Of a DNA stretch of 62,507 nucleotides, positions 35,039-51,412 are shown one piece after another. Within the stretch, counting starts at the first letter, position 1, and each line of letters begins with the position of its first letter. A model generated the notes under the pieces. That model did not search any database, was not told the DNA's origin, and worked only from the letters and a program-made list of their open reading frames with translations. Origin of the DNA: a virus; the IMG/VR virus record IMGVR_UViG_3300028361_000028, positions 1 to 62,507 of that record; one strand, 5' to 3'. The position numbers and the translations under genes were made by a program.

Positions 35039-35271
35039 CTTTTCCCCTCTTAATAAATACCCATTGATCGGGCAAACTAAGAATAGTTCGGTTCGTCTCC
35101 CCCGACTTAATCAAAAGTAATACTGATCTTCGTTACCTACTAATCAGCAATGAGGACTTGTAATGCTCCGCTTACCTCCATTGCTACGGACTGGGAGTGG
35201 CATCCGTAGGTGAACTCTCGATTAAACGTCTGTTCAATCCTGAATTAAATCAGCTTGCTGTTGATTGCAAG
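35039..35271 (-). ncRNA. Putative omega RNA of IscB
   Basis: The 230 nt upstream of iscB are GC-richer than surroundings and strongly structured. A hairpin of CTACGGA (35190-35184 region) with TCCGTAG lies within GAGTTCACCTACGGATGCCA, similar to the GAGUUCACC...GGC core known from IscB omega RNAs. Further pieces are AGCGGAGCATTACAAGTCC and GGGGGAGACGAACCG. A GCTTGC/GCAAGC hairpin (35253-35271) lies at the element-end side. In the family the guide is at the RNA 5' end, next to the left transposon end. Confidence 0.75.
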
Positions 35272-35466
35272 CCCAAGTCCTTTAGGCTTGGGTAATTGAC
35301 TATTATTTTGTAAGTATGTGTTAATGATGGTTGATTGGTCATCAGAAGATAGGTTATTAAATAATTCGTTACACATAATTAAGCAATCTGTTGGTGACAC
35401 ATCAATTGTTAAATTAAACTTTGCTCCGCTTGTTTCTAAGGTAGTTTCAAAAAATTTCTTACTCAT
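35245..35466 (-). CDS. Small hypothetical protein whose 3' end lies in the IscB element
   Basis: 73 residues; AGGAGG precedes the ATG. Residues 1-57 look like a normal phage protein (ETTLETSGAKFNLTIDVSPT). The final 16 residues (LPKPKGLGLAINSKLI) are encoded by the hairpin at the left end of the IscB element, so the natural C terminus was probably displaced by insertion. Function unknown. Confidence 0.68.
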   Translation of the reverse strand: MSKKFFETTLETSGAKFNLTIDVSPTDCLIMCNELFNNLSSDDQSTIINTYLQNNSQLPKPKGLGLAINSKLI

Positions 35467-38983: not shown

Positions 38984-39029
38984 ATTTTAACCCTTTTCTC
39001 CTCCCGCCCTTGTTTAATTTATTACAGTG

Positions 39030-39284
39030 TTATTCCTCATAATATGCTAAACACGTCTCTGTGTTAGGAGGTACTTCAGTGTAACCAGCGTCTATAACCC
39101 TGTAGTGACGGGTATCTTGAAGTTTTTCGGCATTTTCAAAATATTTATTATCACTCATCATTAAAACTATTACACTCAAATTACAGTCAGTTACACCTAG
39201 TCCGATTACAGCGTGACAGGTTTGTGCTGCTAGCTTCTGTGGTGACATTTTTAAATTACGTCTGTATAAAATTTTTACTTTCAT
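39030..39284 (-). CDS. PTH2-like (peptidyl-tRNA hydrolase 2) small protein
   Basis: 84 residues. YRRNLKMSPQKLAAQTCHAV matches the KLAAQxxHA signature of the Pth2 family, and VIDAGYTEVPPNTETCLAYY matches its C-terminal DAGxTEVxPxTxTxLA strand. The protein is shorter than cellular Pth2 (about 115-120 residues), lacking part of the middle. It may hydrolyse peptidyl-tRNA or have been recruited for tRNA binding. It has its own promoter. Confidence 0.82.
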   Translation of the reverse strand: MKVKILYRRNLKMSPQKLAAQTCHAVIGLGVTDCNLSVIVLMMSDNKYFENAEKLQDTRHYRVIDAGYTEVPPNTETCLAYYEE

Positions 39285-39324
39285 TTAAATTCCTTTATGT
39301 AGATAACGTGCATGTGTATATTTA

Positions 39325-39352
39325 AGTATAAGCACTAATAGTTATTTGTCAA
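39325..39352 (-). promoter_or_regulatory. Sigma70-type promoter upstream of the PTH2-like gene
   Basis: On the minus strand TTGACA (39352-39347), a 16-nt spacer ending TGCT and TATACT (39330-39325), followed by an ATACACATG sequence. Same layout as those at 27298 and 37188. The -35 begins only 5 nt after the stop codon of the metacaspase gene. Confidence 0.78.
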
Positions 39353-39356
39353 TGTA

Positions 39357-40286
39357 TTAACTTCCAAAAATATTACGTGATTTAATTAGGGTATTATCTC
39401 CAGTCAGTTGTGGTTCTTGAGTATATCCATTAATATTTAAAGTAGCTGTAATATCTTCATGTATATTAATCCAATTTTTATTAGAATTACTCTTAATTGT
39501 GTTAATTAGGTACGAAGTCATGGCACCTTGCCACTTACCTTCTATATACGCATCAGCCGATGTTTGATTGTCTTTACAACCTGATAGAAGTACATACTCT
39601 TGATAGCTTTTAATTTCTTTATTAAGTCTATTTATAGGAGTATCCACATTATTTCGTATCTGAATATCAATCGGGGGACTTATGAATCTATCCTCCTGTT
39701 TTATAGACCTAGCCATTGAACCACTATGACATGAATCACAAATGAATGTTAAAAACACTCCATTGGCTTTTTTATTGAAATTATGTCGAATAATGTCATC
39801 TGTTAATGGGTCATCCCAATTTAAATCCGTAGGGCAAAGTATTTCATCTAAATGATCATTAAGTTCATCTCCATCACGATCTCTCACTTGAGACCCGTGC
39901 CCTGAAAAATGAAGAACCAATTCATCACCTGGAACAGTGTGACTTAATAACCAGTCTATTCTACTTAAAATGTTCTTTTTAGTAGCTCTTTTGTCTACTA
40001 GTACTCTAACATTGTCTGATGGAAACTTATAGATATTAACTAATACATCGTGCATAGCAACAGCGTCATTTACACAGCCTTTGAGATCTGAGTTAAGGCT
40101 TGAATCATAGATATTAATACCTATAATAACGGCGAACTTAGATGGTTCCCTCTTAGCAGTAATACCCTCTTCTATGGTCTCATCTATAGTGGCGTAAATA
40201 GGGTTATTCTTTATCTCCCCTGTTGTTTCTGGAGTTTTTAATACTGTAGTAATCCAACCCCAAAAGCTTGTTAAAAAGTTTGTCAT
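39357..40286 (-). CDS. Metacaspase/caspase-like cysteine protease (peptidase C14)
   Basis: 309 residues. The p20 core begins near residue 50 (KFAVIIGINIYDSSLNSDLK, GCVNDAVAMHDVL). The catalytic His130 is in VLHFSGHGSQ and Cys186 in FICDSCHSGS; DGDELNDHLDEILCPTDLNW is the typical metacaspase segment between them. The N-terminal 45 residues include a Trp/Phe-rich stretch (MTNFLTSFWGWITTVL) that could be amphipathic. Specificity is probably basic P1 as in other metacaspases. It is co-directional with early genes. Its target is unknown. Confidence 0.92.
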   Translation of the reverse strand: MTNFLTSFWGWITTVLKTPETTGEIKNNPIYATIDETIEEGITAKREPSKFAVIIGINIYDSSLNSDLKGCVNDAVAMHDVLVNIYKFPSDNVRVLVDKRATKKNILSRIDWLLSHTVPGDELVLHFSGHGSQVRDRDGDELNDHLDEILCPTDLNWDDPLTDDIIRHNFNKKANGVFLTFICDSCHSGSMARSIKQEDRFISPPIDIQIRNNVDTPINRLNKEIKSYQEYVLLSGCKDNQTSADAYIEGKWQGAMTSYLINTIKSNSNKNWINIHEDITATLNINGYTQEPQLTGDNTLIKSRNIFGS

Positions 40287-40287
40287 A

Positions 40288-40548
40288 TTATTTCTCCTTA
40301 TTATTTTTATACATCTCTGCTAATAAATCTAATTGAAATTTTTCTGGTAATTCCCAATACTCCCATTCTATTCCTTTTAGTGGTTTTTCACATAAAGATT
40401 GTTTTATGATGTTTCCATCCATTATACACCAACCACCAAATAAAATTTTTATAAAAACATATTTAGATTTTGATGGAAAAACTCTTGATGCAATAAGTAT
40501 TAAAAATTTTGCTATTTGTTCTCGTGCACTCTTATTAGAGTAACTCAT
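40288..40548 (-). CDS. Small protein upstream of the metacaspase
   Basis: 86 residues with a hydrophobic stretch (QIAKFLILIASRVFPSKSKY) and GGWCIMDGNIIKQS. The gap to the metacaspase ATG is only about one codon, so both are co-translated. It may be a partner or substrate of the protease. No family recognised. Confidence 0.65.
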   Translation of the reverse strand: MSYSNKSAREQIAKFLILIASRVFPSKSKYVFIKILFGGWCIMDGNIIKQSLCEKPLKGIEWEYWELPEKFQLDLLAEMYKNNKEK

Positions 40549-40614
40549 TTTTTCTCCTTATTTATTTTTTTAAAATACTAGTTCATAGTTCTTATCCATA
40601 AGTAGGTTTGTTTA

Positions 40615-41727
40615 TTACGAATTATTTAGTAAATAAGCTTTACATATTATGTATAATTCCTTTTCTGTATAATGACCTAATCCCGCATTAAACACCCAAA
40701 TAACCAATCTACAGTTTTCAGGTGTATATCCCTTACTAACATCAATTCTATCAATACTTGGTCCGAATGGGTTTCTCTGAAGAGTGGTATCGTAGTCGAA
40801 TGGTAATTCAGTGACCTCACATAAATTTGACTCTGTCTTCTCGTTTAACCATTTTCTAGTTATACTGTGATCCATATTTTTTTCTTTCGCGCGGACTTTT
40901 GAGTACACAAACAACCGTCTTAGTTTAAACTCCTTAGGGTTTTCTGTCCTTAGTTTTTCTAATCGTTCTTTCTGGTCTCTACTATAGTCATTAGGCGTCT
41001 TATAGTTGGCTATTCGCTCTAATCTCTTACGTTCTTTTTCTAGCTCTCTAATTTCTTTTAATTTCTTACGTTTTAATACTAGTAAAGCTTGCCGCTCTTT
41101 CTTTTCTTTCTTTTTTATTATTTTACTAAGGTAAAGTTCTTTTTCCCTTATTGCTTCTCTTTCTTCTATTATAAATTGCTCTATAGGTATATTTTTCTTA
41201 TACCACAGATTAGTAAGTCTCCTTAGTTCTCGATAGAGTAGTGTTTGGTGTTCAGTACAACAATAGAAGGTACTGATTATTTTTTTACTGTTATGTCCTT
41301 GTACGAAGCACTTAACTTTAGTAGCTGTGTTAATACTAGGGGTAAACCACTCATGGCAATAAGCACATTTTATTTCTAAATAGTCTCTATCTAGTACTGC
41401 TCTTCTTATCTCATAATATGGAGCTAGTATTTCATACCTCTCGTATAATGGATGTATTTGACCTTTATCAATCAATTCGAAGTATCTCTTGTTTTTAATT
41501 ACCTTAGCTTCCTCTACTTCTTCCCAATCTTTAAGTTCTTCCTCTGATGGTTTATACTTATGTTTACACTTGGCACCACAGAATAATGACTGGTGTTGAT
41601 TTGAAGTTAAATACGGCTCGCCACAGTTCTTGCATGCATCCTTATATATATAGGAGCACCCTTTTCTCCTAAAGAACCCGTTCCTACTAAGTGTCATTTG
41701 ATCCAGTTTTTCATAACACAATCTCAT
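40615..41727 (-). CDS. HNH-type homing endonuclease (SIDRID subtype), zinc fingers and long basic linker
   Basis: 370 residues from ATG 41727, which has GAGGAGG 6 nt upstream (an ATG five codons earlier is rejected). N-terminal zinc modules (CKNCGEPYL, CGAKC; CAYCHEWF), a very Lys/Arg/Glu-rich helix around residues 200-260, and a C-terminal nuclease LCEVTELPFDYD, then GPSIDRIDVSKGYTPENCRL. The end resembles the neighbour at 41711-42064. It overlaps that gene by 17 nt. Confidence 0.85.
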   Translation of the reverse strand: MRLCYEKLDQMTLSRNGFFRRKGCSYIYKDACKNCGEPYLTSNQHQSLFCGAKCKHKYKPSEEELKDWEEVEEAKVIKNKRYFELIDKGQIHPLYERYEILAPYYEIRRAVLDRDYLEIKCAYCHEWFTPSINTATKVKCFVQGHNSKKIISTFYCCTEHQTLLYRELRRLTNLWYKKNIPIEQFIIEEREAIREKELYLSKIIKKKEKKERQALLVLKRKKLKEIRELEKERKRLERIANYKTPNDYSRDQKERLEKLRTENPKEFKLRRLFVYSKVRAKEKNMDHSITRKWLNEKTESNLCEVTELPFDYDTTLQRNPFGPSIDRIDVSKGYTPENCRLVIWVFNAGLGHYTEKELYIICKAYLLNNS

Positions 41728-42064
41728 TGTTATCCTCCTCATACTTCTTCACAAATGCAGCAGCCCAATAGGCAAACACTTCCTCAGGAAACTCACATTT
41801 GGCCGTATTATACATATGACAAACCATTTGGCAGTTATTTTCTGTATATCCTTTGTTTGAATCTACTCTATCAATACTTGGGTAGTAGGGATTTACATAC
41901 GGATCTCTGTGAGTCTTAAAAGGCAAGCCAGTGACCTCACAACGACCAGCATCCAATTTATCACGTATCCAGTTAGGTGTTAAACTAAACGGGATATTTT
42001 TTCGGCGGGCGCGCTTTTCAAGTTTTTGTAGTTTGTTGTTTAAATTACTAAAATAATTATCCAT
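41711..42064 (-). CDS. Small HNH-type endonuclease (SIDRVD subtype)
   Basis: 117 residues from ATG 42064 (AAGGA 7 nt upstream); an in-frame ATG at 42097 would add 11 residues. Basic N-terminal helix (KLQKLEKRARRKNIPFSLTP), then CEVTGLPFKTH, YPSIDRVDSNKGYTENNCQM and a helical end. The same core as the neighbour at 40615-41727, without zinc fingers. It is the last minus-strand gene before the divergent switch. Confidence 0.8.
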   Translation of the reverse strand: MDNYFSNLNNKLQKLEKRARRKNIPFSLTPNWIRDKLDAGRCEVTGLPFKTHRDPYVNPYYPSIDRVDSNKGYTENNCQMVCHMYNTAKCEFPEEVFAYWAAAFVKKYEEDNNEIVL

Positions 42065-42097
42065 GGTTGGTTCCTTTTTTTTATCTTTTTCCCCCAT

Positions 42098-42622
42098 CTC
42101 TTCTTCGGAGGTAAGTCCTAATCGTGGTTGTTTGTCAGCAGTGCTTCAAAAATAAATAATCAATAGAAAGGTGTTCTGACGAGTTAGATACTAAAGGTCT
42201 TCAGTACTAAAGGTCTTCAGTACTAATAGTTTAAGTACTAATAGTTTAAGTACTAATAGTTTAAGTACTAAAGGTCTTCAGTATTGATAGTTTAAGTACT
42301 AAAGGTCTTCAGTACTGATGAGTTAGATACTATGTAGTTACTGCCTATATAGTAGTTAGTTTAATATAGCCTAAAGGTACTACTATCGTGGTCTAATACA
42401 ATTTTAGAACCCCCAAAATAAGTGGGACAGGGACACTGTAGTATGATAGAGTATTATTGCATACATACAATACATTATAGGCCCCTTACTTCTTATTTAG
42501 TAGAGTGCCTTTATGCGATGACAGCTCTATGATAAACATACCAGCCGGGTGAGTCGGTTTGATATGAGATCAAGTTTGATCCCCCCCCCTCCCCCTGGGA
42601 GGCAACTACAAAGGAGATTATT
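42098..42622. other. Divergent control region between leftward and rightward genes
   Basis: All genes to the left read leftward and nearly all to the right read rightward. No gene is visible in this 525-nt space. It contains the 10-unit repeat array (42176-42340), AT-rich sequence after it, a TTGCATACATACAATACATTATAGG promoter-like patch (weak) near 42458, and a C-rich tract near 42581. It is the most likely place for an origin or master switch in this window. Confidence 0.65.
42176..42340. repeat. Tandem 15/16-bp repeat array, iteron-like
   Basis: Ten tandem units built on AGTACT. Type A is AGTACTAAAGGTCTTC (16 bp), type B is AGTACTAATAGTTTA (15 bp) and type C is AGTACTGATGAGTTA, which occurs once near each edge. 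The order is C-A-A-B-B-B-A-B-A-C. CTGAYGAGTTAGATACTA occurs at both edges (42176-42193 and 42315-42332, one mismatch). Each AGTACT is palindromic, so the array could bind a row of protein dimers at about 1.5-turn spacing. Confidence 0.85.
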
Positions 42623-42856
42623 ATGACTACCACACAAAAGACTTATGAGCAAGTAATCGAGACTAAGGAATCTTATATTGATGTATATCAGCCAGTTGCA
42701 GGTTGGAAACCTCAACTAATGGTTTGGATGGAAGAGGATGGCATGACTGGATTTGTATGTCTCAACACAAGCTACTTCGCATATGAAACAAGGGAGAAGG
42801 CTGTTGTTGAGGCTAAGCAGTGGGCTGAGGATGAGGATATAGCCTATGTAGAATAA
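42623..42856 (+). CDS. Small hypothetical protein, first rightward gene
   Basis: 77 residues (TYEQVIETKESYIDVYQPVA, then YETREKAVVEAKQWAEDEDI), alpha/beta and acidic at the end. AAGGAG stands before the ATG. The hammerhead ribozyme begins 5 nt after its stop codon. No family recognised. Confidence 0.75.
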   Translation: MTTTQKTYEQVIETKESYIDVYQPVAGWKPQLMVWMEEDGMTGFVCLNTSYFAYETREKAVVEAKQWAEDEDIAYVE

Positions 42857-42861
42857 ACAAT

Positions 42862-42918
42862 CCGAAACGGGACTATACATCCCGTCTACAGCCTTAAGCA
42901 AGCTGTACTGATGAAGGT
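42862..42918 (+). ncRNA. Type II hammerhead ribozyme
   Basis: Contiguous core: GAAA (42864-42867), stem III ACGGGA/TCCCGT (42867-42872 with 42880-42885), GTC cleavage triplet ending at C42886, stem I TACAGC/GCTGTA (42887-42892 with 42902-42907), and CTGATGA (42908-42914). Stem II is the open stem and short: G42916-C42862, G42917-U42861 and U42918-A42860, next to an A-C at the usual G-C position 10.1/11.1. Predicted cut is between 42886 and 42887, inside the mRNA spacer between two small genes. Confidence 0.82.
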
Positions 42919-42952
42919 AGCTTAATTAATATATAACTTAAGGAGACTTATC

Positions 42953-43141
42953 ATGACTAATTCAATCAACATTACTGACGCACCAAAATGTAAAACATTT
43001 GAAATGAATGGTAATACTTGTGAAGGTTGTTTGGTTGACCCTTGTCCTTGTGGAACCGATGACGCTAATTCACTTGAATACATCGATCATGTTGGATATT
43101 GTATAATTAACAAAAATAACGAAATTGTGGAGGTGATGTAA
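42953..43141 (+). CDS. Small Cys-rich protein downstream of the ribozyme
   Basis: 62 residues with six cysteines in a tight cluster (KCKTFEMNGNTCEGCLVDPC, then PCG) and one further Cys near the end; probable metal binding. AAGGAG lies 7 nt before the ATG. If the hammerhead cuts, this gene's mRNA would begin at 42887. It overlaps the next start (TAATG). Confidence 0.7.
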   Translation: MTNSINITDAPKCKTFEMNGNTCEGCLVDPCPCGTDDANSLEYIDHVGYCIINKNNEIVEVM

Positions 43142-43287
43142 TGATAAAGTTTATTAAACCTTTAGTAATGTTTACCACATCATTCAGCGCAGTATGGTAC
43201 GCAGCATTCATTCTTGACCCAGACTTTGTTAAGTTTGTCTGGGAAGCAGTCAAATACACTACCCAGCATTGGCTGTGGATAGTGTAG
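43141..43287 (+). CDS. Small hydrophobic protein
   Basis: 48 codons. GGAGGTG lies before the ATG, which overlaps the upstream stop. MIKFIKPLVMFTTSFSAVWY followed by AAFILDP gives one probable membrane helix, and the C terminus is Trp-rich (TQHWLWIV). Unknown function. Confidence 0.6.
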   Translation: MIKFIKPLVMFTTSFSAVWYAAFILDPDFVKFVWEAVKYTTQHWLWIV

Positions 43288-43335
43288 ATTTTAACTCTTT
43301 CGTCTTGGGCAGGACGTTAACTTACCCATCACTCG

Positions 43336-43400
43336 TCTGAGCGAGTATAAACAGTCCTTAGGCTCAGAGCGTCGTCCCACTTCGGTGGGGCGGGTGGCAA
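43336..43400 (+). ncRNA. Two-hairpin leader RNA motif, copy 1
   Basis: Hairpin A is TCTGAGC (43336-43342) with GCTCAGA (43362-43368). Hairpin B is CGTCCCAC-TTCG-GTGGGGCG (43373-43392) with a UUCG tetraloop, followed by the invariant GGTGGCAA. Copy 2 at 46328-46390 keeps both stems with compensating changes. It lies 33 nt before the ATG at 43433, so it is part of that gene's 5' leader. Confidence 0.8.
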
Positions 43401-43432
43401 TAACGCCTTAATTAGTTAAATAGGAGTTTATT

Positions 43433-43720
43433 ATGAAAGTAAGAACAACTGCACTTATTATGTCGTCTATCCTCGATTCAGGACGCACCATTGATATGAG
43501 TGGGGCAAGTAACCTTCTTCAGTTTGGTAATAAAGCCAGTTACCTTGGTGGTGGGTGGTGGTACATCAGTGATAGTGGAGGAACATCATTGAAGAAAACC
43601 ATTATGGCTATTAGGTCACTTACCAGGTCTGGTAAGGTGTGTGTGGAATGTGGAAAACTTCACATCTGTAATGACAAGTGTGTAAAATGCGCCAGTGCAT
43701 CATCGCCTGAATACTGGTAA
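43433..43720 (+). CDS. Hypothetical protein with C-terminal zinc ribbon
   Basis: 95 residues. Gly/Trp-rich middle (ASYLGGGWWYISDSGGTSLK) and a C-terminal CVECGKLHICNDKCVKC zinc module. TAGGAG site. Its leader holds RNA motif copy 1. No family recognised. Confidence 0.72.
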   Translation: MKVRTTALIMSSILDSGRTIDMSGASNLLQFGNKASYLGGGWWYISDSGGTSLKKTIMAIRSLTRSGKVCVECGKLHICNDKCVKCASASSPEYW

Positions 43721-43771
43721 TCAACAGTCCTTTCGAATATTAAATATATAGATATTAAAAGGAGTATTACT

Positions 43772-43972
43772 ATGGAATTAAAGGAAGTGGGAAAAAGAGA
43801 ACTAGCGGAACAGTACAATATTCCTGAAGAGTATTTAAGGTATATAGGACCCACTGATTGCTCAATGCTAGCTGGAGGAGGTAAACTTCATCAGTATAAT
43901 ATCCACCTCAAAGGACACCCGAACGACAAATCGACGGTTGCATACAGACAAAAGGAGGTACAAAATGGTTAA
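43772..43972 (+). CDS. Small hypothetical protein
   Basis: 66 residues (KRELAEQYNIPEEYLRYIGP, then GGGKLHQYNIHLKG). AAGGAG site. It overlaps the HAD-like gene by 8 nt, so the two are co-translated. No family recognised. Confidence 0.68.
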   Translation: MELKEVGKRELAEQYNIPEEYLRYIGPTDCSMLAGGGKLHQYNIHLKGHPNDKSTVAYRQKEVQNG

Positions 43973-44369
43973 TGTATACGTAGACCTTGACGGCACCCTA
44001 CTAGATAGCCGGCTTGATGATAAGTACAAAGCCATCAGCACTCAGTATGGTAAGGGTTTTGCTGATGACTGGTATGAATCCACCTATTACGATACCCTTG
44101 AGCTCAATTTGGCTCTGTGGTGTCGTCTATTGGTATTAAAGGAAGAGGGTGCTTCTATTGTAGCCTGGACTAATAGACGAGAATCTAAGGCTGACATGAC
44201 ATTCAGTAATTTGGCTAAGCTTGGTATTATGGATTTGTTTTCAGGATTTATGTTCTGTAACGGACAAAAACATACTATGCCACTCAGGGATGGAGTAGTA
44301 TTTGAGAATGAGTTCGACAATGAGATTGAATGTTCAGAATTTAATTTTATCCCAACATTTAAACTGTAA
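43965..44369 (+). CDS. HAD-like phosphatase
   Basis: 134 residues from ATG 43965, which has AAGGAGG 7 nt upstream (an earlier in-frame start is rejected). Motif I is VYVDLDGTLLDSR with both Asp residues, motif II is SIVAWTNRRES, and a GMPLRDGVVFENEFDNE-like acidic end could supply the metal-binding part. A short HAD without an evident cap; possible nucleotidase or sugar phosphatase. Confidence 0.8.
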   Translation: MVNVYVDLDGTLLDSRLDDKYKAISTQYGKGFADDWYESTYYDTLELNLALWCRLLVLKEEGASIVAWTNRRESKADMTFSNLAKLGIMDLFSGFMFCNGQKHTMPLRDGVVFENEFDNEIECSEFNFIPTFKL

Positions 44370-44380
44370 GGAGATTCAAG

Positions 44381-44473
44381 ATGGATAAATGGTTAGAAAT
44401 TGTGTCTGGAATTGTGTGTGGGTTGCTGATTGTTGGTATGATATATATGGCAATGCTCGGAATGGCTAACTAA
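44381..44473 (+). CDS. Tiny single-span membrane protein
   Basis: 30 codons (MDKWLEIVSGIVCGLLIVGM, then IYMAMLGMAN) forming one transmembrane helix. AAGGAG 7 nt before the ATG supports translation. Function unknown. Confidence 0.62.
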   Translation: MDKWLEIVSGIVCGLLIVGMIYMAMLGMAN

Positions 44474-44485
44474 TAAGGAGGCATT

Positions 44486-44683
44486 ATGAAGGTAAGCAGA
44501 TTTACTACAAAAAAGAATAACTATAGCAAGAGATACCTTGAGAAAGAGTATAGAGAGGAGTATTTGGTCGCTAAGTTATCAAAGAAATCCTCTACTCTTG
44601 CATACGATTTTAATTCTCCTACAGAAAATACAATAAACAACTGGGAAAGAACTTCAAATGGAGCAAAGATTTGGAGTTTTTAA
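44486..44683 (+). CDS. Small basic hypothetical protein
   Basis: 65 residues, Lys/Arg/Tyr-rich (KKNNYSKRYLEKEYREEYLV), ending SNGAKIWSF. AAGGAGG site at ideal spacing. Possibly nucleic-acid binding. No family recognised. Confidence 0.68.
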   Translation: MKVSRFTTKKNNYSKRYLEKEYREEYLVAKLSKKSSTLAYDFNSPTENTINNWERTSNGAKIWSF

Positions 44684-45008
44684 TATATTAACCTATAACT
44701 GCCCCTTACTTAGAGGGGCACCACTAAAGCACCGTTGTCAGGGTTCCCAAGTCCTGGATGAGAAAACTGCTGAGGGGTGGTTACAATTATCACTATAAGG
44801 ATAAATGCGTATGTTACTATTATGATGTTCTTAATGGCCCTAAAGTGTTTTACCATCAACTACAGGTGTTGCTCCAAAATGTAGTGTAGTAGCTATCTAA
44901 TACCTACGGGGCAAAATCACATCTTAGGATACCATAACTAAAAGATACGAGTGAACTTTTAAAAGCAATTCTATCTATATTTATAAATAACTAATAGGAG
45001 ATTACACC
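44684..45008. other. Intergenic leader region of the PcfJ-like gene
   Basis: A GCCCC-TTACTTAGA-GGGGC hairpin (44701-44719) lies near the upstream gene. The rest could be a long 5' leader. One unsupported ORF (44758-44889, listed separately) falls here. No tRNA fold was found, although GGTTCCCAAGTCC looks superficially like a T arm. Confidence 0.5.
44758..44889 (+). CDS. Possible small protein without a ribosome site
   Basis: 43 codons (MRKLLRGGYNYHYKDKCVCY, then YYDVLNGPKVFYHQ). The residue pattern is protein-like, but there is no Shine-Dalgarno sequence before the ATG, unlike its neighbours. It may be a chance frame. Confidence 0.3.
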   Translation: MRKLLRGGYNYHYKDKCVCYYYDVLNGPKVFYHQLQVLLQNVV

Positions 45009-46316
45009 ATGAAGACAATCACAGTTGAAAACAATCAGGTATTTATCACAAACACCATTACCAATGAGAAAGTAAAACATAACTATTCAATGAACAACCG
45101 ACCACTCAGTGTTGTTGAACTGTATACGAGTATTGATCCTATAGATATTAGAAAATCTCGTGAAAAGAAAGAAATAACTGCATTGTGGCGAGCAGCTGGA
45201 GATGAGCTAGGGACTTCAGTAGCTAACTTCTCCAGAATGTTAAATGGTGCGTGTTATAAAGCTTATATTAAAGACAATGAAGACCTACACAACAGGTTTG
45301 GGGTTGAGTACAAAAAAGTTGGAGGAAAAGTTAAAAGAGTCAGAACCCGTTTAGCTGTTGAAATGGTAAATACTTACTGTGAAGTAATACGACAATATAT
45401 TGCTGACGGTAATACTCATTTAGCCGGATTTAGTATTCCGTTCGGTGAAGCTAGTGTAGCTAAAAAGAAATTAGGCAAAGGATTGTGGAAACAACTAAAT
45501 AAGAATTCTAAAACTAAGAATGATTTAATATGTAAGATACTTAATGCGTACTCTGAACCTAAACTTGATACTACAGCTTATACAGCCATGTTGAATAATA
45601 CACCATCTACAATACTCAGTATGGTAGACAGTGCCAATACATTGCTGGCTTTCTTTAATACGGAAAGTTCAACAGGGATGAAGGATACTGTTAAAAAGTC
45701 AATTCAGCACATAGGACTTCCTATGTACAAATTAGATTATGAAAGACTGCAACGTGTTATTGTATTGATTCGTGATACACACCGTATGCATCAAAACTTT
45801 AACCCTAATTGGTCTTTAACTAGAATTAAAGAAGAACATCAAATAACAATAAACGAGCAGTTTGCCTTAAGACACTCTAAAGAGAGGTTTAGTTGGTTAA
45901 ACCTCATTACTCAGTACTTTGAGGCTAATGGTAATAAAGCTGAACTCATGTGCTCAGCATATGATATAGCTATACTAGGTAAGGACCAAGGACATTACGT
46001 AGGTAATTATGCACGTTTCAGTAAAGATGCTAACTACGTTGTATATAGAATTACTGACTGTGAGGGAACGATCTCTACATTAGGGATTAGGCACCCAGAT
46101 GAAACAAATCACTTATGTGATCAACACTACCTGAGATTTAATTATATAGTAGCTAATGAAGCTTGTTTATCCTTTGCAGCTAAAATTACCAGACAAGTAA
46201 AAAAGGAATTAGAGTTGATTGATATATCCAAAAAACAGGAACCTTTAAAACCTATCACACAAGCTATCGATTTTCCTCAAATTGAAGCTGATGATCCAGA
46301 AGACACCCCATTCTAG
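45009..46316 (+). CDS. PcfJ-like domain protein
   Basis: 435 residues. The C-terminal part AYDIAILGKDQGHYVGNYAR, then NYVVYRITDCEGTISTLGIR, then QHYLRFNYIVANEACLSFA follows the pattern of PcfJ-like proteins (GxxxxHCVGxY, then a beta hairpin ending in TLxI). Here the usual HC is HY. The N-terminal 300 residues are helical and unassigned. PcfJ proteins occur on conjugative plasmids and phages with unknown mechanism. TAGGAG site. Confidence 0.62.
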   Translation: MKTITVENNQVFITNTITNEKVKHNYSMNNRPLSVVELYTSIDPIDIRKSREKKEITALWRAAGDELGTSVANFSRMLNGACYKAYIKDNEDLHNRFGVEYKKVGGKVKRVRTRLAVEMVNTYCEVIRQYIADGNTHLAGFSIPFGEASVAKKKLGKGLWKQLNKNSKTKNDLICKILNAYSEPKLDTTAYTAMLNNTPSTILSMVDSANTLLAFFNTESSTGMKDTVKKSIQHIGLPMYKLDYERLQRVIVLIRDTHRMHQNFNPNWSLTRIKEEHQITINEQFALRHSKERFSWLNLITQYFEANGNKAELMCSAYDIAILGKDQGHYVGNYARFSKDANYVVYRITDCEGTISTLGIRHPDETNHLCDQHYLRFNYIVANEACLSFAAKITRQVKKELELIDISKKQEPLKPITQAIDFPQIEADDPEDTPF

Positions 46317-46327
46317 TCAATTATCTG

Positions 46328-46390
46328 TTTGAGCAGGTACACAGGCCTTAAGCTCAAAGCGTCGCCTCACTTCGGTGGGGCGGGTGGCAA
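46328..46390 (+). ncRNA. Two-hairpin leader RNA motif, copy 2
   Basis: Hairpin A is TTTGAGC (46328-46334) with GCTCAAA (46352-46358). Hairpin B is CGCCTCAC-TTCG-GTGGGGCG (46363-46382). The tail GGTGGCAA is identical to copy 1. Relative to copy 1, one C-G pair in stem A became T-A on both sides, and two stem B positions changed while staying paired. It lies 50 nt before the zinc-ribbon gene start at 46440. Confidence 0.8.
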
Positions 46391-46439
46391 AATGGACATT
46401 CCGTCCACAATTAAACCGTAATACATAGGAGATTACACC

Positions 46440-47045
46440 ATGACTAACATTATCAAAAAGAATGCTAAAGTACTTAACAATCGTGAACTTATAACTGGAA
46501 TGGGCGCTAATGGTATTGTGCCCTCTCTTAACAACAAAGGCACACTTATTTTTACTCATTGCCCTATGTGCGAAGCAGAGCTCCTTGCAGATAACCCTGG
46601 TTATACTAAAGCTATTCTTAGTAATAAACCTTGGTATCAAGCTACGCCAGCTATTGTGTTCAAAATGCCTAATGGCTCTACTCTCAAGGCGTGCTGTTGT
46701 GGTTATAGAGAGCTAGTAATTATTACACCTAAACCTAGGTGCTCTAACTGCGGTAGTGTTCTTAAGAACGAAGGGGACAGGTGCTATGGTCCTAACTGCC
46801 AGCCTCCTACACAACAGGAGCTGGACTCCATTGCGACCGAGAAAAAGCAAGCTCAGGAGATAAAGGCTGCTGAATTGAAAGCCAAACAAGAGGCTAAGCA
46901 AAAAGCCACTAAACCTCCTGTCAAACAGTGCGTAACTCCTGGATGTACAAACCCAGTGCCTGAGAGTCGTTTTGTTAGATGCGAGGCATGTCGTGCAACA
47001 CGAAGAACCCCAAAGGAGGAGGCTTGTACTGAAGTTCAGATGTAA
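46440..47045 (+). CDS. Multi-zinc-ribbon hypothetical protein
   Basis: 201 residues. Zinc modules: CPMCEAEL with CCCGYREL, CSNCGSVLKNEGDRCYGPNC, and CVTPGCTNP with CEACRA, joined by a charged Ala/Lys/Gln coil (KAAELKAKQEAKQKATKPPV). TAGGAG site; leader contains RNA motif copy 2. The gene before which copy 1 lies also ends in a zinc ribbon. Confidence 0.75.
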   Translation: MTNIIKKNAKVLNNRELITGMGANGIVPSLNNKGTLIFTHCPMCEAELLADNPGYTKAILSNKPWYQATPAIVFKMPNGSTLKACCCGYRELVIITPKPRCSNCGSVLKNEGDRCYGPNCQPPTQQELDSIATEKKQAQEIKAAELKAKQEAKQKATKPPVKQCVTPGCTNPVPESRFVRCEACRATRRTPKEEACTEVQM

Positions 47046-47214
47046 TCTGCTGGCTACCGAAGATGAACTCATCTATCTCATGATAGATGGACTAACCTAT
47101 ATCTACTGCCTTGATAAAGCTAAGCATCCATACTTCATTAAAACATTGAAGTATAAACCAGGCAAAGCTATTAACTATATCAAAGCAGAAGCCTATTGGA
47201 CAGAGATGGGTTAA
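47029..47214 (+). CDS. Small hypothetical protein, start codon uncertain (CTG?)
   Basis: The frame is protein-like from about 47050 on (EDELIYLMIDGLTYIYCLDK, then HPYFIKTLKYKPGKAINYIK) but lacks an early ATG. AAAGGAGGAGG at 47013-47022 inside the upstream gene is 6 nt before a CTG at 47029, the start I prefer. A TTG at 46972 or the internal ATG at 47080 are alternatives. It overlaps the upstream gene by 17 nt. Confidence 0.5.
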   Translation: MKFRCNLLATEDELIYLMIDGLTYIYCLDKAKHPYFIKTLKYKPGKAINYIKAEAYWTEMG

Positions 47215-47223
47215 ATTAAACCT

Positions 47224-47248
47224 GGGCACCTGAGTAATTAAGGTGTCC
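47224..47248 (+). promoter_or_regulatory. Leader hairpin before 47267 gene
   Basis: GGGCACCT pairs with AGGTGTCC over 8 bp around a 9-nt loop, followed by AAATTAAGGAGAATTATC and the ATG. Member of the repeated leader-hairpin family, here in reverse arm order compared with 48197 and 48856. Confidence 0.65.
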
Positions 47249-47266
47249 AAATTAAGGAGAATTATC

Positions 47267-47605
47267 ATGCAAAAAGCACTAAAAACTGTTAAACGAGCTA
47301 CCTATGCACAAAAACGACAAGAGGCTTTTGATATGTTGAACAACACATATGAGGAAGAAGGTGTTCTTCTGTGCAGTGGGGAATTTAAAATCAATTCTCT
47401 GATGGCTATGATGATGGCAAGATCTGCTTTTAAAGAGACTTATGGAGCACTCGCCCCAAGGTACTTCAACATACCGGCTGACGAGCTTCCAGGAACTGAA
47501 GTACACCCAGGTGTATATATTTCACGAGATGAGAATTCTCATTATTCTTTGGAGTACGAAGACGGTTTCCAAATGGAGGAATTTATTCAACAATGGGTAT
47601 GTTAA
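47267..47605 (+). CDS. Hypothetical protein
   Basis: 112 residues from ATG 47267, which has AAGGAG 7 nt upstream (an earlier TTG is rejected). N-terminal basic helix (MQKALKTVKRATYAQKRQEA) and a mixed C-terminal domain (YFNIPADELPGTEVHPGVYI). Preceded by a leader hairpin. No family recognised. Confidence 0.72.
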   Translation: MQKALKTVKRATYAQKRQEAFDMLNNTYEEEGVLLCSGEFKINSLMAMMMARSAFKETYGALAPRYFNIPADELPGTEVHPGVYISRDENSHYSLEYEDGFQMEEFIQQWVC

Positions 47606-47617
47606 ATAAATAAACAA

Positions 47618-47636
47618 GGGGCTCTGTATGAGCCCC
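47618..47636 (+). promoter_or_regulatory. GC-rich hairpin between two genes
   Basis: GGGGCTC-TGTAT-GAGCCCC, 7 perfect pairs with a 5-nt loop, placed between a stop codon and the AAGGAGG of the gene at 47650. No T tract follows, so a stability or processing element is more likely than a terminator. Confidence 0.65.
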
Positions 47637-47649
47637 ATAAGGAGGCAAT

Positions 47650-47841
47650 ATGGGTAATTTAGATAAAATAGGAATGTGTTCCCACTGTAAACAGCTTTGT
47701 ACACCTGTTGAATTGGATGAAGATAAAACTGAAGAAGTGGATTTCTTTGGTGTGGATAGCCTGTCTGAAGTAGACCAGTATATACTGGAAGGTGGAATTT
47801 TGTGCGAAAAATGCTACTCAAAAGAAGGCGGCATAGTATAA
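47650..47841 (+). CDS. Small zinc-finger-like protein
   Basis: 63 residues with CSHCKQLC near the N terminus and LCEKCYSK near the C terminus flanking an acidic middle (ELDEDKTEEVDFFGVD). AAGGAGG site. Probably binds one zinc. Unknown function. Confidence 0.7.
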   Translation: MGNLDKIGMCSHCKQLCTPVELDEDKTEEVDFFGVDSLSEVDQYILEGGILCEKCYSKEGGIV

Positions 47842-47850
47842 ACCAAACAC

Positions 47851-47875
47851 AGGTGTTTGAATAACTCAGACATCT
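47851..47875 (+). promoter_or_regulatory. Leader hairpin before 47894 gene
   Basis: AGGTGTTTGA and TCAGACATCT pair over 10 bp (two G-U) around loop ATAAC, 6 nt before AAGGAG. Same family as the hairpins at 47224, 48197 and 48856. Confidence 0.7.
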
Positions 47876-47893
47876 AAACCAAGGAGAAGTGAT

Positions 47894-48166
47894 ATGACAC
47901 AGCGTACAGCAATGAACAACGACAAACGAACAGAAGAGGCTACCACTGATTATACACTCCAATTTGAATTAAGGAAATTAGGTTATCGTCGCAAAGATAA
48001 ACAAGTATGTGAAGCATGTATCGAAGAAATGGAATACAGCATGCAGTCCGTTGGTTATACAGGTACCAACCCTGCTTGGGCTAACCCAAGATGTGCATAT
48101 AGATTCGAAAAAGAAGGGTCTTCTATGATAGCCTGTAGGTGTGGTTGGAGAAAAACCATAGTTTAA
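47894..48166 (+). CDS. Small Cys-containing hypothetical protein
   Basis: 90 residues. CEACIEEMEYSMQSVGYTGT and a C-terminal ACRCGWRKTIV give two cysteine pairs for a zinc site. The N-terminal half is polar. AAGGAG site behind a leader hairpin. The ending CRCGWRK resembles CCCGYRE of the protein at 46440. Confidence 0.7.
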   Translation: MTQRTAMNNDKRTEEATTDYTLQFELRKLGYRRKDKQVCEACIEEMEYSMQSVGYTGTNPAWANPRCAYRFEKEGSSMIACRCGWRKTIV

Positions 48167-48196
48167 ATAACACTATTTAATAGTTCCATAACTAAT

Positions 48197-48221
48197 AGGT
48201 GCCTGAATAACCAGGGCACCT
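48197..48221 (+). promoter_or_regulatory. Leader hairpin before 48240 gene
   Basis: AGGTGCC pairs with GGCACCT, a bulged G, TG/CA and loop AATAAC, followed by AAATCAAGGAGAATTACC and the ATG. Member of the repeated leader-hairpin family. Confidence 0.7.
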
Positions 48222-48239
48222 AAATCAAGGAGAATTACC

Positions 48240-48845
48240 ATGATAAACAATGCCACTTTTACCCCAAACACTCTTGAAATACTTCCTGAATTCTGTGAAC
48301 TATCCACCTTAACCTCATCGTTATTTGGTGATAACAATAGCTTAAGCTTTCAAAGTATTAAACTTAGTGCTGCTATTACCGTAAAAAAAGAGTACTTGGA
48401 TGATTACTCACTTTCACATGACTGTAAAGCGTCAATATTGCGACAAACCAGAGACAGGATATCTGTACCAATAATACATTCTAATTTTGACTATGCTCTC
48501 AGTCGTGCGAGAGAATTTGATGGTAAGCTGTATTGTGGTAGCACTAACACAGTACGTTGGCAAGTAGAGTGGATAGAGCTACTTAGTAATTCCACTGGTA
48601 ATGTGTATAAATTAAAGAGAATTAAAGACGAGTTACTTTGGCGCATGATGCTTATACAAGTGAATGGTGTGTCTATAGAGGACTCAGGGTTATCCTCGGT
48701 TGATTTAGAGGCAGTTCGTATGGAGCTAATGGATATAATTTACGTAATGTGCTTTCGTTTAAAAGGACATAGAGATAAAGGTAAAGTCTGTCAATCAAGG
48801 AAGATGCTTGAAGCGCAGCTCGAAGACTTAAATACAGAAGTATAA
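48240..48845 (+). CDS. Hypothetical protein
   Basis: 201 residues, helical in the C-terminal half (SSVDLEAVRMELMDIIYVMC, then KGKVCQSRKMLEAQLEDLN) and no membrane segment. AAGGAG site. No family recognised; part of a run of equally spaced rightward genes. Confidence 0.72.
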   Translation: MINNATFTPNTLEILPEFCELSTLTSSLFGDNNSLSFQSIKLSAAITVKKEYLDDYSLSHDCKASILRQTRDRISVPIIHSNFDYALSRAREFDGKLYCGSTNTVRWQVEWIELLSNSTGNVYKLKRIKDELLWRMMLIQVNGVSIEDSGLSSVDLEAVRMELMDIIYVMCFRLKGHRDKGKVCQSRKMLEAQLEDLNTEV

Positions 48846-48855
48846 TTTAAATATG

Positions 48856-48878
48856 GGTGCTTGGATAATCCAGGCACC
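48856..48878 (+). promoter_or_regulatory. Leader hairpin before 48899 gene
   Basis: GGTGCTTGG and CCAGGCACC pair over 9 bp (one G-U) around loop ATAAT, 7 nt before AAGGAG. Compared with 47851, a C-G pair replaces T-A and a G-C replaces A-T, so the stem is conserved by compensation. Confidence 0.72.
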
Positions 48879-48898
48879 TAAAATCAAGGAGAATTATC

Positions 48899-49492
48899 AT
48901 GGGAGCAGATAGAACTCACCACAACGCACACATGAAGAATGAGAATGCAGTAGCTGGAGTACGAATGACTGTTTGGGTTGCAGTGTATGATTTTTACAAC
49001 CAGATGGGAATAAATTGGGACAATATTGATGACTTGGTAAGCCCTTATGAGTATGGTAACACTAGATTCTCAGAAGCTTATCTTCTTCCTTTTTATTTCA
49101 AAAACCACTTTAATACGCGTAAAGCCACACAGATGATAGGATATGCTGGAAGCAATAACAGTCCTCTGGAGTTTCGACTCAAAAGGATGAACCTGCTGAA
49201 CTTCATTGAGTTAGCCAGAGCACTGATGCAAGCCAACATGATTACAAAAAAAGATATTCAAATTATTTTGGAAGCACCTTTCAAAAAGCGTAAAACAACA
49301 GGGAGAGGTCCGGAAAGCGGGGGAGTTTATAAATTCTACGCCAAAACACTTGTTGTTTCTTCCATCAATAAATGGGGAGGATTAAAGAACGCAGCAAGGC
49401 AGCTCGAAGTATCCTTGGATGTTGTTAAGTATTGGAGTACTTTAGTTGTTAAAGATATTAAAGTGAAACCCACCTCATCAGCAAGGAGATAA
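48899..49492 (+). CDS. Hypothetical protein with possible C-terminal helix-turn-helix
   Basis: 197 residues. The C terminus INKWGGLKNAARQLEVSLDV-V-KYW looks like a helix-turn-helix followed by a basic tail (KVKPTSSARR). The N-terminal domain is alpha/beta. AAGGAG site behind a leader hairpin. Possibly a regulator. Confidence 0.68.
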   Translation: MGADRTHHNAHMKNENAVAGVRMTVWVAVYDFYNQMGINWDNIDDLVSPYEYGNTRFSEAYLLPFYFKNHFNTRKATQMIGYAGSNNSPLEFRLKRMNLLNFIELARALMQANMITKKDIQIILEAPFKKRKTTGRGPESGGVYKFYAKTLVVSSINKWGGLKNAARQLEVSLDVVKYWSTLVVKDIKVKPTSSARR

Positions 49493-49510
49493 TCATACAG
49501 GAGGTACAAC

Positions 49511-50092
49511 ATGTTTATTAAATCTAAGTACAATGATGGTGTGTGGAACAAATTGGAAAATTGGGAAATGTCAGAAAACTGTGAAATAACAGGTATTGGA
49601 CCTATGGGACTTGAGGTATACGGAATGATAAAGGCAGTAGCCCCATTCGAAAAACTTGAGGCTGGACAGAAGATAGGTATTATGGACTATGGTTGGTGGA
49701 TACTTGGAGAACCCAAATCATTATCTAAACAACAGTTGCACACCATCTATACTGCACACTATCGATATCCTGGGTCAGACAGGGTGGATATTACTGTCAA
49801 AGGACAGGACCCTAATTGGAAAGAATTTGCACCCACTTGGAAGATGGTAATGGGAGTAAAAAATGGTACTATGAGTGAACAGGAGTATGTTGATTTGTAT
49901 GCGCCTACTGGTAGACAAATCACAGTCATAGGTAGCGTGTCTGAGGCTACTTGGGAAAGACTGTATCAAATGGAAACAGCGACATTTGTTTGTTTTTGTC
50001 CTGAAGGTGCGTTTTGCCACCGAAATATCCTACTAAACTACATCCTTGAAATAATGGGAGGCAAAGTAGTCTATGGGGGTTGGAGAAAATAA
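49511..50092 (+). CDS. DUF488-like protein
   Basis: 193 residues. IYTAHYRYPGSDRVDITVKG, then FAPTWKMVMGVKNGTMSEQE and the C-terminal VCFCPEGAFCHRNILLNYIL match the DUF488 signature (LxCxCxxxxFCHRxxLA). Some DUF488 proteins accompany DNA-processing systems, but the activity is unknown. AGGAGG site. Confidence 0.8.
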   Translation: MFIKSKYNDGVWNKLENWEMSENCEITGIGPMGLEVYGMIKAVAPFEKLEAGQKIGIMDYGWWILGEPKSLSKQQLHTIYTAHYRYPGSDRVDITVKGQDPNWKEFAPTWKMVMGVKNGTMSEQEYVDLYAPTGRQITVIGSVSEATWERLYQMETATFVCFCPEGAFCHRNILLNYILEIMGGKVVYGGWRK

Positions 50093-50459
50093 ATCGACAT
50101 TTGTTATTATGATACTATTTTACGGTAACCGCTTATTTCGTGTTTTAAGTCAGTACAATAACTCGCCCAACTAATGAAACGCCAGAAAGTGCCTGTAAGC
50201 AATTTGGAGATGTTTGACGGTAAATGCAATTTATACCTACACCTTGGGGGACTAGCTTTTAAAAGTTAGTTCCCCTTAGTGTTCTCGGAAGAGTGCCACC
50301 CACTGGCGCTGGCGCGTGTTCTCGGTATACTGAAAAACAAGCACCACTTCCGGGACAGTCCTGGATTCGGTAGCCTTCCCTGCTTGAAATCTCATATAGT
50401 CTGGAAGTCACGAGTACTGCCTAAGTATTAATCGTTCTACTAAACCAAAGGATTAAATT
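50093..50459 (+). other. Intergenic region with long hairpin and duplicated segment
   Basis: A hairpin with 15-bp arms and no loop (50246-50275, GGGGGACTAGCTTTT with its complement, two G-U) is followed by two GTTCTCGG words and a GC-rich tract. The segment GCTTGAAATCTC to GAGTACTG (50383-50424) recurs in altered form in the next gene (50571-50607). A 31-codon ORF at 50174 lacks a ribosome site and is not called. Confidence 0.55.
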
Positions 50460-50660
50460 ATGAGCACTAAACAATGGGTGTGGATGATGGACTACTGCAA
50501 AAAACAAAGCATTCCACCCGCAGAATCCTGGGCTTGGGGAGATGCCAAGAAAGCCTATGAACTTTCCCGCTTGAAATCCTCTATAGTAGGGAGGCCGGGA
50601 GTACTGGAGTACCAGGAGGTTCTCGGGAGACAGGAGTATGAGGGAGACATCAACCAATAA
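50460..50660 (+). CDS. Small hypothetical protein with repeat-derived C terminus
   Basis: 66 residues. Trp-rich N terminus (STKQWVWMMDYCKKQSIPPA). The C-terminal third (from about residue 38) is encoded by repeat sequences: one segment like 50383-50424 and 19 nt identical to 53415-53433, both read in the same frame as QEVLGR. AAAGGA site. Unknown function. Confidence 0.6.
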   Translation: MSTKQWVWMMDYCKKQSIPPAESWAWGDAKKAYELSRLKSSIVGRPGVLEYQEVLGRQEYEGDINQ

Positions 50661-50778
50661 CCCTTTAGTAAGGAGAGTAGCACTAACAGGTAAGTAAAGT
50701 TGAGTATTAAAAACAGGAGAGGGAGCCAGGAGGTTCCTTCAATGTAGCATCAATCTATTAAATATAGGGAGTTTTAAC

Positions 50779-50979
50779 ATGGCTAAAATTATTCGTTTTG
50801 TAAAAGTTGATGGGTACCAGACAAGAGCCGGTATTACACAGTCCAACATCTTTAAGAATTCTTGCGAAAAAGCTGCTAAGATTCTCGGACTGGATGTTGT
50901 AACCCTCAATACCAAAAGGCAAGCCTCAAAATTCAAAAGAGGCACCGGTATCGTATTCAACACAGCAATCAACAAGTAA
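50779..50979 (+). CDS. Small basic hypothetical protein
   Basis: 66 residues (MAKIIRFVKVDGYQTRAGIT, then KAAKILGLDVVTLNTKRQAS), a beta-alpha fold with a basic C-terminal half. GGGAG site. It could be a small DNA-binding protein, not recognised. Confidence 0.65.
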   Translation: MAKIIRFVKVDGYQTRAGITQSNIFKNSCEKAAKILGLDVVTLNTKRQASKFKRGTGIVFNTAINK

Positions 50980-51005
50980 TACCAACCAACCAAGGAGAAA
51001 TACCC

Positions 51006-51176
51006 ATGGCAAGAAATCGAAAGTACGGAGCATCCCCAGCAGTCGTGCATTTTTTCAGAGAATGTAATACAGAAGTTGTAAAAATGATAGATGCCCGTGC
51101 ATCAAAGCCAAAAGCCTGTGGTAAGGTTACAAGGATTAGCGATAATGTTATTAAACGGAGGAAGCTATATGTTTGA
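51006..51176 (+). CDS. Small basic protein
   Basis: 56 codons (MARNRKYGASPAVVHFFREC, then RISDNVIKRRKLYV), strongly basic. AAGGAG 8 nt before the ATG. Its end overlaps the next start by 8 nt. Unknown function, nucleic-acid binding possible. Confidence 0.62.
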   Translation: MARNRKYGASPAVVHFFRECNTEVVKMIDARASKPKACGKVTRISDNVIKRRKLYV

Positions 51177-51351
51177 AACCCAAAAACTGATTGTTGATGA
51201 AAAGGGAGTATGTAGTCCCCCATATAAAGTCATCCCATTAGAGAGGCTCTATCGACATATTCCAACGGCACGTAAGCTGTTGAGGCACAGGAGTATGATG
51301 CGGTTGAGTGCACCACCAGTAATAAAATCATTACCCCTATATATAGGGTAA
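51169..51351 (+). CDS. Small hypothetical protein
   Basis: 60 codons from ATG 51169, which has GGAGG 7 nt upstream inside the previous gene (longer frame rejected). MFETQKLIVDEKGVCSPPYK then a basic LERLYRHIPTARKLLRHRSM helix. Followed by two hairpins (51333-51355 and 51366-51387) before the HExxH gene. Confidence 0.6.
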   Translation: MFETQKLIVDEKGVCSPPYKVIPLERLYRHIPTARKLLRHRSMMRLSAPPVIKSLPLYIG

Positions 51352-51412
51352 AATTGATCACAAAGGGGGGCCGTAAGGTTCCCCACAACTAACCAAAGTA
51401 AGGAGATACACC

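Follow-up and report, generated by a model that had tools for sequence, protein, structure and literature searches.

A predicted type II hammerhead ribozyme shares a rightward gene block of a large uncultured phage with two Pistol ribozymes

The record studied here, the virus IMGVR_UViG_3300028361_000028, comes from a large uncultured phage and comprises 62,507 bases, all of which were analyzed and are referred to below as the window. Positions 39009-52313 of the window are 99.99% identical, over 13.3 kb, to part of a contig of 237,910 bases (IMGVR_UViG_3300028364_000014, the ~238-kb contig or G001). The left arm of the window carries the terminase, portal and major head genes on the minus strand, and from 42623 rightward the genes bearing a Shine-Dalgarno site lie on the plus strand. 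Three gaps between these rightward genes hold ribozyme candidates, a hammerhead in the gap 42856-42953 and two Pistol copies in the gaps 43287-43433 and 46316-46440, and all three lie on the same strand, within ~3.5 kb and in one gene direction. The first-pass annotation of this DNA, made from the letters and their open reading frames, had pointed to the hammerhead and not to the Pistol copies. The features of the block are the following.

42623..42856 (+): first rightward gene, 77 aa, an ORF with Shine-Dalgarno site, upstream of the hammerhead
42862..42925 (+): predicted type II hammerhead including its pseudoknot tail (RF02276, 36.6 bits; our own viral model, 45.5 bits)
42862..42863 (+): 5' strand of stem II, CC, with proposed partners G42916-G42917 (sequence and survey register)
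42864 (+): first nucleotide of the core GAA (sequence)
42867..42885 (+): stem III hairpin, strands 42867-42872 and 42880-42885, 6 bp with a 7-nt loop (sequence and fold)
42886..42887 (+): predicted cleavage site between C17 (C42886) and U42887, from the position in the hammerhead core
42887..42907 (+): stem I hairpin, strands 42887-42892 and 42902-42907, 6 bp with a 9-nt loop (sequence and fold)
42894..42899 (+): pseudoknot strand in loop I, UUAAGC, a perfect complement of 42920-42925
42908..42914 (+): core CUGAUGA (sequence)
42915 (+): probable extra A between A9 and G10.1 (survey register)
42920..42925 (+): pseudoknot strand in the 3' tail, GCUUAA, at tail offset 5
42940..42945 (+): Shine-Dalgarno site of the 62-aa gene, AAGGAG (read from the sequence)
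42953..43141 (+): second rightward gene, 62 aa, an ORF with Shine-Dalgarno site, downstream of the hammerhead
43141..43287 (+): 48-aa ORF between the hammerhead and Pistol copy 1
43331..43399 (+): Pistol copy 1 (RF02679, 71.3 bits, cut-off 34.5), between the 48-aa and 95-aa ORFs
43433..43720 (+): 95-aa gene, an ORF with Shine-Dalgarno site, downstream of Pistol copy 1
45009..46316 (+): 435-aa gene, an ORF between the two Pistol copies
46323..46389 (+): Pistol copy 2 (RF02679, 49 bits, cut-off 34.5), 6 nt past the stop of the 435-aa gene
46440..47045 (+): 201-aa gene, an ORF with Shine-Dalgarno site, downstream of Pistol copy 2

The 77-aa protein had no Pfam or PHROG match, and the 435-aa protein had distant matches (26-29% identity, for the best 20 of 24) to hypothetical proteins in 24 Vibrio phage records.

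Architecture and family membership of the hammerhead

Along the plus strand the element runs without interruption in the order CC, GAA, stem III hairpin, C17, stem I hairpin, CUGAUGA, A, GG, UA and GCUUAA. The core GAA-A15.1 ... U16.1-H17 ... CUGAUGA is present in type II order by sequence and motif scan, with A15.1 as the first nucleotide of the stem III hairpin. Stems I and III are closed hairpins in which 12 of 12 pairs are Watson-Crick and stem II is open, which is the type II topology. The proposal of the first-pass annotation, a hammerhead core at 42862-42918 with 6-bp stems I and III and a cut after 42886, was borne out as regards the core, both stems and the position of the cut. Its right end, on the other hand, moves from 42918 to 42925, because 42894-42899 in loop I can form a possible 6-bp pseudoknot with 42920-42925.

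In a scan of 2 kb, the Rfam model of these ribozymes, RF02276, gave 36.6 bits (E 2.8e-5) for 42860-42926 (+), 0.4 bits short of the curated cut-off, which is 37; when the record as such was searched, the score was again 36.6 bits, at E 2.1e-7. No match was found in 14 control genomes at E 0.01, and at a lax E of 1 five of the 14 had matches, none above the cut-off. The whole-window Rfam scans omit the hammerhead: one of them lists only matches above cut-off, and another, run with a limit of E 5, presumably missed it because of stricter filters. A covariance model of our own, built from 66 other viral type II hammerheads taken from the matches listed in the survey described below and excluding the window, gave the element 45.5 bits (E 4.9e-7, a rough value), with the next-best site in the window at 12.5 bits, and found none in the rest of G001 or in the contigs G004 and G024. 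In addition, a strict motif was counted, for which stems I and III had to reach 5 bp (G-U pairs being accepted) and stem II 2 bp with no more than one extra nucleotide. It occurred a single time in the window, and 600 genomes simulated with the dinucleotide frequencies of the window yielded it in 2 of their 1,200 strands. The fold z-score is modest (-1.65), as calculated by a program that cannot count pseudoknots.

Two papers are cited here by accession, PMC3088659 (first author Perreault) and PMC4604425 (first author Harris). The element resembles the hammerheads of RF02276 and of PMC3088659 in its open stem II, closed stems I and III, core, very short stem II, predicted pairing of loop I with the 3' tail and location in a phage gene gap. 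It differs from RF02276 in the probable extra A before stem II (U is commoner among the matches listed) and in scoring under that family's cut-off. PMC3088659 reports that a two-bp stem II is frequent among hammerheads and that one ribozyme with a single bp needs its pseudoknot and cleaves at more than 1.2 per minute. The complementarity between loop I and the tail of the window element is 6 bp in the expected register, in line with the four or more bp given there as a majority feature. This bears on the first-pass remark that a ribozyme with so short a stem II may be slow or need a tertiary contact: a candidate for one is available, and it had been missed. The Rfam match, the score on the viral model and the survey register thus uphold the earlier identification, and we regard 42862-42925 as a well-supported candidate for a new example of the known type II hammerhead, with a probable extra A and in a three-ribozyme setting, as judged from sequence models.

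Searches of viral contigs with the 435-aa, 77-aa, 62-aa, 201-aa and 574-aa proteins each led to the near-identical 238-kb contig only, and bacterial and archaeal genomes gave no match to the 435-aa protein. These viral-contig and bacterial/archaeal searches yielded no diverged relative in which the ribozyme part of the rightward arm is covered. Weak signs of relatives are the Vibrio phage matches of the 435-aa protein and an 84-residue match of the 574-aa protein in the record G031 (31% identity, E 1.8e-4), and G031 had no match to the hammerhead or Pistol family. The portal protein led to 31 loci; each ribozyme family matched one of the 31 records, the 238-kb contig itself, and neither was found in the other 30 at E 0.01. 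The two longest portal relatives, G004 and G024, showed none of the window's rightward-arm genes, and since both contigs appear to stop in the region of that arm, little can be concluded from the absence of ribozymes in them.

A vestigial or accidental look-alike of a hammerhead, with no useful rate of cleavage, would fit the score under the Rfam cut-off, the very short stem II (two canonical pairs, and these only if A42915 is extra) and the fact that the searches found no orthologue showing constraint. PMC3088659 adds two observations that count against activity of the window element: inactivity was found for some hammerhead-like RNAs, including one of a Xanthomonas phage, and insertions around the pseudoknot of one ribozyme lowered its rate by orders of magnitude. 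Nevertheless, the complete core, the two perfect 6-bp stems, the possible 6-bp pseudoknot in the right register, the rarity of the motif in simulated strands and the two Pistol copies nearby all argue against such a look-alike, which we consider unlikely. That the hairpins act as a transcription terminator or attenuator rather than as parts of a ribozyme is hardly credible, since this would leave the hammerhead core and the pseudoknot unexplained; on the minus strand stem III was classed as terminator-like, but the tail there is CGGATTGTTT, and on the plus strand no U-run follows the hairpin.

The extra nucleotide, the pseudoknot register and placement between genes

Viral contigs were surveyed with a degenerate pattern that required CCGAAAC, GTC and ACTGATGA. 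The pattern returned at least 119 stretches, with 80 loci listed, 65 of which contain a structured match, and the frequencies that follow hold for this pattern-picked subset only. Including the window, there were 86 matches among those listed; exclusion of 16 with a stem of less than 4 bp left 70 in which stem I and stem III both reach 4 bp, and removal of three duplicates left 67 distinct members. Among the matches listed, stem II begins directly after CUGAUGA in 50 of the 67 and after one extra nucleotide in 15, the window included (13 U and 2 A), and two fit neither class; an extra A rather than U occurs in one of the 14 other extra-nucleotide members.

The tail offset of the pseudoknot differs between the two classes. 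When offsets 2-7 were searched in both, a pseudoknot of at least 4 bp was present in 17 direct members, 13 of which (one of them by a tie) start it at offset 4, and in 12 extra-nucleotide members, 10 of which, the window among them, start it at offset 5, again among the matches listed. Class-dependent offsets (3-5 for direct members, 4-6 otherwise) gave nearly equal counts (13/16 and 10/12). What the survey adds is that, among the matches listed, a common extra nucleotide before stem II goes with a shift of the pseudoknot by one position. Loop I and the tail pair in register over at least 4 bp in 29 of the 51 listed members whose loop I has at least 5 nt, compared with 3.7 members on average, and never more than 10, in 500 swaps of tails. 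Loop I of the window forms 6 bp with its own tail and at most 4 bp with 66 foreign tails, and the window tail forms at most 3 bp with the loops of other members.

Since the pseudoknot offset of 5 matches the extra-nucleotide class, A42915 is best read as an extra nucleotide, with stem II formed by the pairs G42916-C42863 and G42917-C42862. The pair G10.1-C11.1 next to the core is present only on this reading, and an A-C mismatch takes its place otherwise. The alternative, in which that mismatch would be followed by G42916-C42862, G42917-U42861 and U42918-A42860, fits less well. What the first-pass annotation had read as an A-C pair next to the core is probably an extra A in view of the survey register. 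The plus-strand hammerhead of CChMVd likewise has one added core nucleotide, labeled 'extra A' in a figure legend. Among the matches listed, 14 other viral members share an added nucleotide before G10.1. The viroid ribozyme of CChMVd has a topology different from that of the type II hammerhead in the window. Its extra A was reportedly described by De la Pena and Flores in 2001.

For the placement count, six of the 67 members lay near contig ends and were dropped, leaving 61 among the matches listed. A same-strand gene start preceded by a Shine-Dalgarno site lies within 150 nt downstream in 58 of these 61 listed members, the window included, compared with 9 of 61 on the opposite strand and 193 of 800 random positions; the distance from CUGAUGA to the gene start has a median of 32.5 nt among the matches listed and is 38 nt in the window. 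A same-strand stop within 150 nt upstream is found in 61 of 61, a weaker contrast to the opposite strand (39/61, likewise among the matches listed) and to random positions (421/800). These stereotyped starts and stops indicate that, in the surveyed subset, the hammerhead is a between-gene element ahead of the next ribosome-binding site, and the stereotyped distance to that site is a further addition of the survey, among the matches listed. For the window, both the position of the element and this stereotyped placement (58/61) support the earlier prediction of a cut between the genes 42623-42856 and 42953-43141.

On another reading, the ribozyme would act mainly as a translation switch. The Shine-Dalgarno stretch (CUUAAGG, 42937-42943) could pair with loop I (CCUUAAG, 42892-42898) or with the tail, the pseudoknot would compete with this pairing, and folding or cutting would make the beginning of the 62-aa gene accessible. 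The competing pairing has the lowest energy both for the 96-nt gap (-18.7) and for transcripts with ends at 42943-42951. For some lengths a structure of the gap that lacks stem I is the minimum, which also counts against the hammerhead. However, once the gene start is included the best fold forms stems I and III, and 42943-42945 of the Shine-Dalgarno site are mostly open in the 3' product (0.77-0.96 unpaired), although 42941-42942 are mostly paired there (0.04-0.06 unpaired). Because AAGGAG-type sites are common in the phage, the complementarity may be incidental, and we judge a switch of this kind to be quite improbable.

Pistol copies, RtcB and cutting of the rightward transcript

Both Pistol copies match positions 1-68 of 68 of RF02679, above its cut-off, and are 89% identical to each other over 53 nt. 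P1 differs between them at three pairs, two changed on both sides and one from C-G to U-G, and the pseudoknot differs at one pair, from C-G to U-A. As pairing is kept in each case, both copies seem to be maintained, although two are too few for statistics; copy 1 has a non-standard pair in P2. The Pistols share the phage setting of the hammerhead and represent a separate ribozyme class. PMC4604425 reports an association of pistol ribozymes with phages and a discovery of the class that was guided by phage genes and by other ribozymes in the neighborhood. Elsewhere in G001, Rfam gave only tRNAs above cut-off and nothing at E up to 0.1. No Pistol was found in the 80 hammerhead-pattern records among the matches listed (0 of 30 in a search in which G001 came up as the positive control, 0 of 50 in one in which no positive control came up). 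A scan for a Pistol pattern returned 80 loci that were mostly chance matches, with two of the 50 records tested matching the family, both below cut-off, and the scan was dropped on that account.

From its sequence, the hammerhead is quite probably a working type II ribozyme, one of three self-cleaving ribozymes in the gaps of one rightward block, and its most likely function would be the cutting of a polycistronic transcript. In this scheme, loop I would pair with the 3' tail and align stems I and II, and the RNA would cut itself after C42886. The stem III hairpin, carrying a 2',3'-cyclic phosphate, would then form the end of the upstream messenger. The downstream messenger would begin at its 5'-OH with the hairpin of stem I, 66 nt before the start codon at 42953. 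Hairpin ends with a cyclic phosphate and 5'-OH ends would be expected to be protected from ribonucleases. If a single RNA spans all three ribozymes, three cuts would split this polycistronic RNA into units whose stability and translation could be set separately. With two ribozyme classes and three ribozymes in ~3.5 kb, one clone of ~4 kb could test transcript processing. The first-pass description of the RNA as an early transcript was not sustained: a promoter scan gave 19 sites against a shuffle mean of 19.0, which leaves the divergence from the structural-gene arm as its basis.

The processing idea and its parts are already known from PMC3088659 and PMC4604425. The former describes multiple hammerheads flanking prophage genes and clustered prophage hammerheads that cleaved in vitro, and it already proposed processing into operon- or gene-length messengers while calling the biological function of such hammerheads unproven. 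In the literature searched, represented in part, we found no description of a mixed hammerhead-Pistol block of this make-up. The hammerhead of Halorubrum phage HF2 (10292-10359, NC_003345) is annotated as type II and, like that of the window, lies just upstream of a gene start; it is located in the early gene section, with a tRNA splicing ligase downstream on the same strand. HF2 differs from the window phage in its archaeal host, in having no annotated Pistol and, according to PMC3088659, in a core insertion near C3.

A ligase gene is also encoded on the 238-kb contig.

83094-84557 of G001, same strand as the ribozymes: RtcB ligase gene, ~24 kb downstream, beyond the right end of the window

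The gene is in two in-frame pieces ~230 nt apart, and the insert between them bears a weak resemblance to a group I intron (RF00028, 19.6 bits, cut-off 50). A second RNA ligase (PF09414) is encoded just upstream of RtcB, and a search for the RNA ligase PF09511 gave no match, with its controls silent too. As RtcB joins RNAs with 3'-phosphate and 5'-OH ends, the phage enzyme might close messengers into circles, or rejoin them, at the ends left by the hammerhead and the Pistols, a reading favored by the split RtcB gene on the ribozyme strand and by the pairing of hammerhead and ligase on one strand of HF2. In a more specific form, paired cutters would release RNAs of ~508 nt (the 62-aa and 48-aa genes, between the hammerhead site 42886/42887 and the Pistol site 43394/43395) and ~2,990 nt (between both Pistols, whose sites are assigned by homology), and an RtcB split by an intron-like insert would seal them into circular messengers. 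Paired cutting, if it occurs, would give 5'-OH and 2',3'-cyclic phosphate ends, which RtcB could join.

However, RtcB was found in one of the 80 hammerhead-pattern records among the matches listed, about as often as in phage records at large (619 of 50,697), the former search covering 2.3 Mb of partly overlapping pieces from records of which some are incomplete and of which 65 of the 80 listed hold a structured match. Controls from the Pistol-pattern scan, which overlap, gave RtcB in 0 of 16 partial records and 0 of 80 loci. Furthermore, the phage has tRNAs, whose repair explains RtcB, the RtcB gene is interrupted, and circular or spliced products were not detected according to PMC3088659. Since the records picked for such ribozymes show no excess of RtcB, joining of the ribozyme products is in our view very unlikely, and the sealing of paired-cutter products into circular messengers is just as doubtful.

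Other features of the phage

Several further features were observed outside the ribozymes. In the minus-strand arm, the large terminase gene (14453-17443) contains an intein splicing domain and a LAGLIDADG match, and G004 matches both terminase flanks side by side, without the insert. An IscB-like protein with RRXRR and HNH domains (33551-35038, minus strand) has upstream of its gene a HEARO RNA match at 35117-35300 (minus strand; 46.5 bits, below the cut-off of 83), and a caspase-domain protein (Peptidase_C14, E 1.9e-31) is encoded at 39357-40286 (minus strand). The divergent gap between the arms (42184-42333) holds tandem 31-nt repeats with AGTACTAA cores, possibly a promoter or operator array. 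Inside the ribozyme block, 43968-44369 encodes a small HAD-type protein weakly like phage polynucleotide kinase, on weak matches (PHROG 1.6e-4, Pfam below cut-off, PDB E 0.02). At 138.5-158.5 kb of G001, 16 clustered tRNA genes were identified by ARAGORN, with 18 Rfam matches, one spanning 131 nt. Finally, a recurrent hairpin of about GGTGYYTGRATAAYYCAGRCACCT is found at 47224-47250, 47852-47875, 48198-48221 and 48856-48879 of the window, directly upstream of the Shine-Dalgarno sites of nearby genes and with paired changes between copies. A pattern derived from the copies finds the last three (at most 3 mismatches, none in shuffles) and misses 47224-47250, and the hairpin could be a translational operator.
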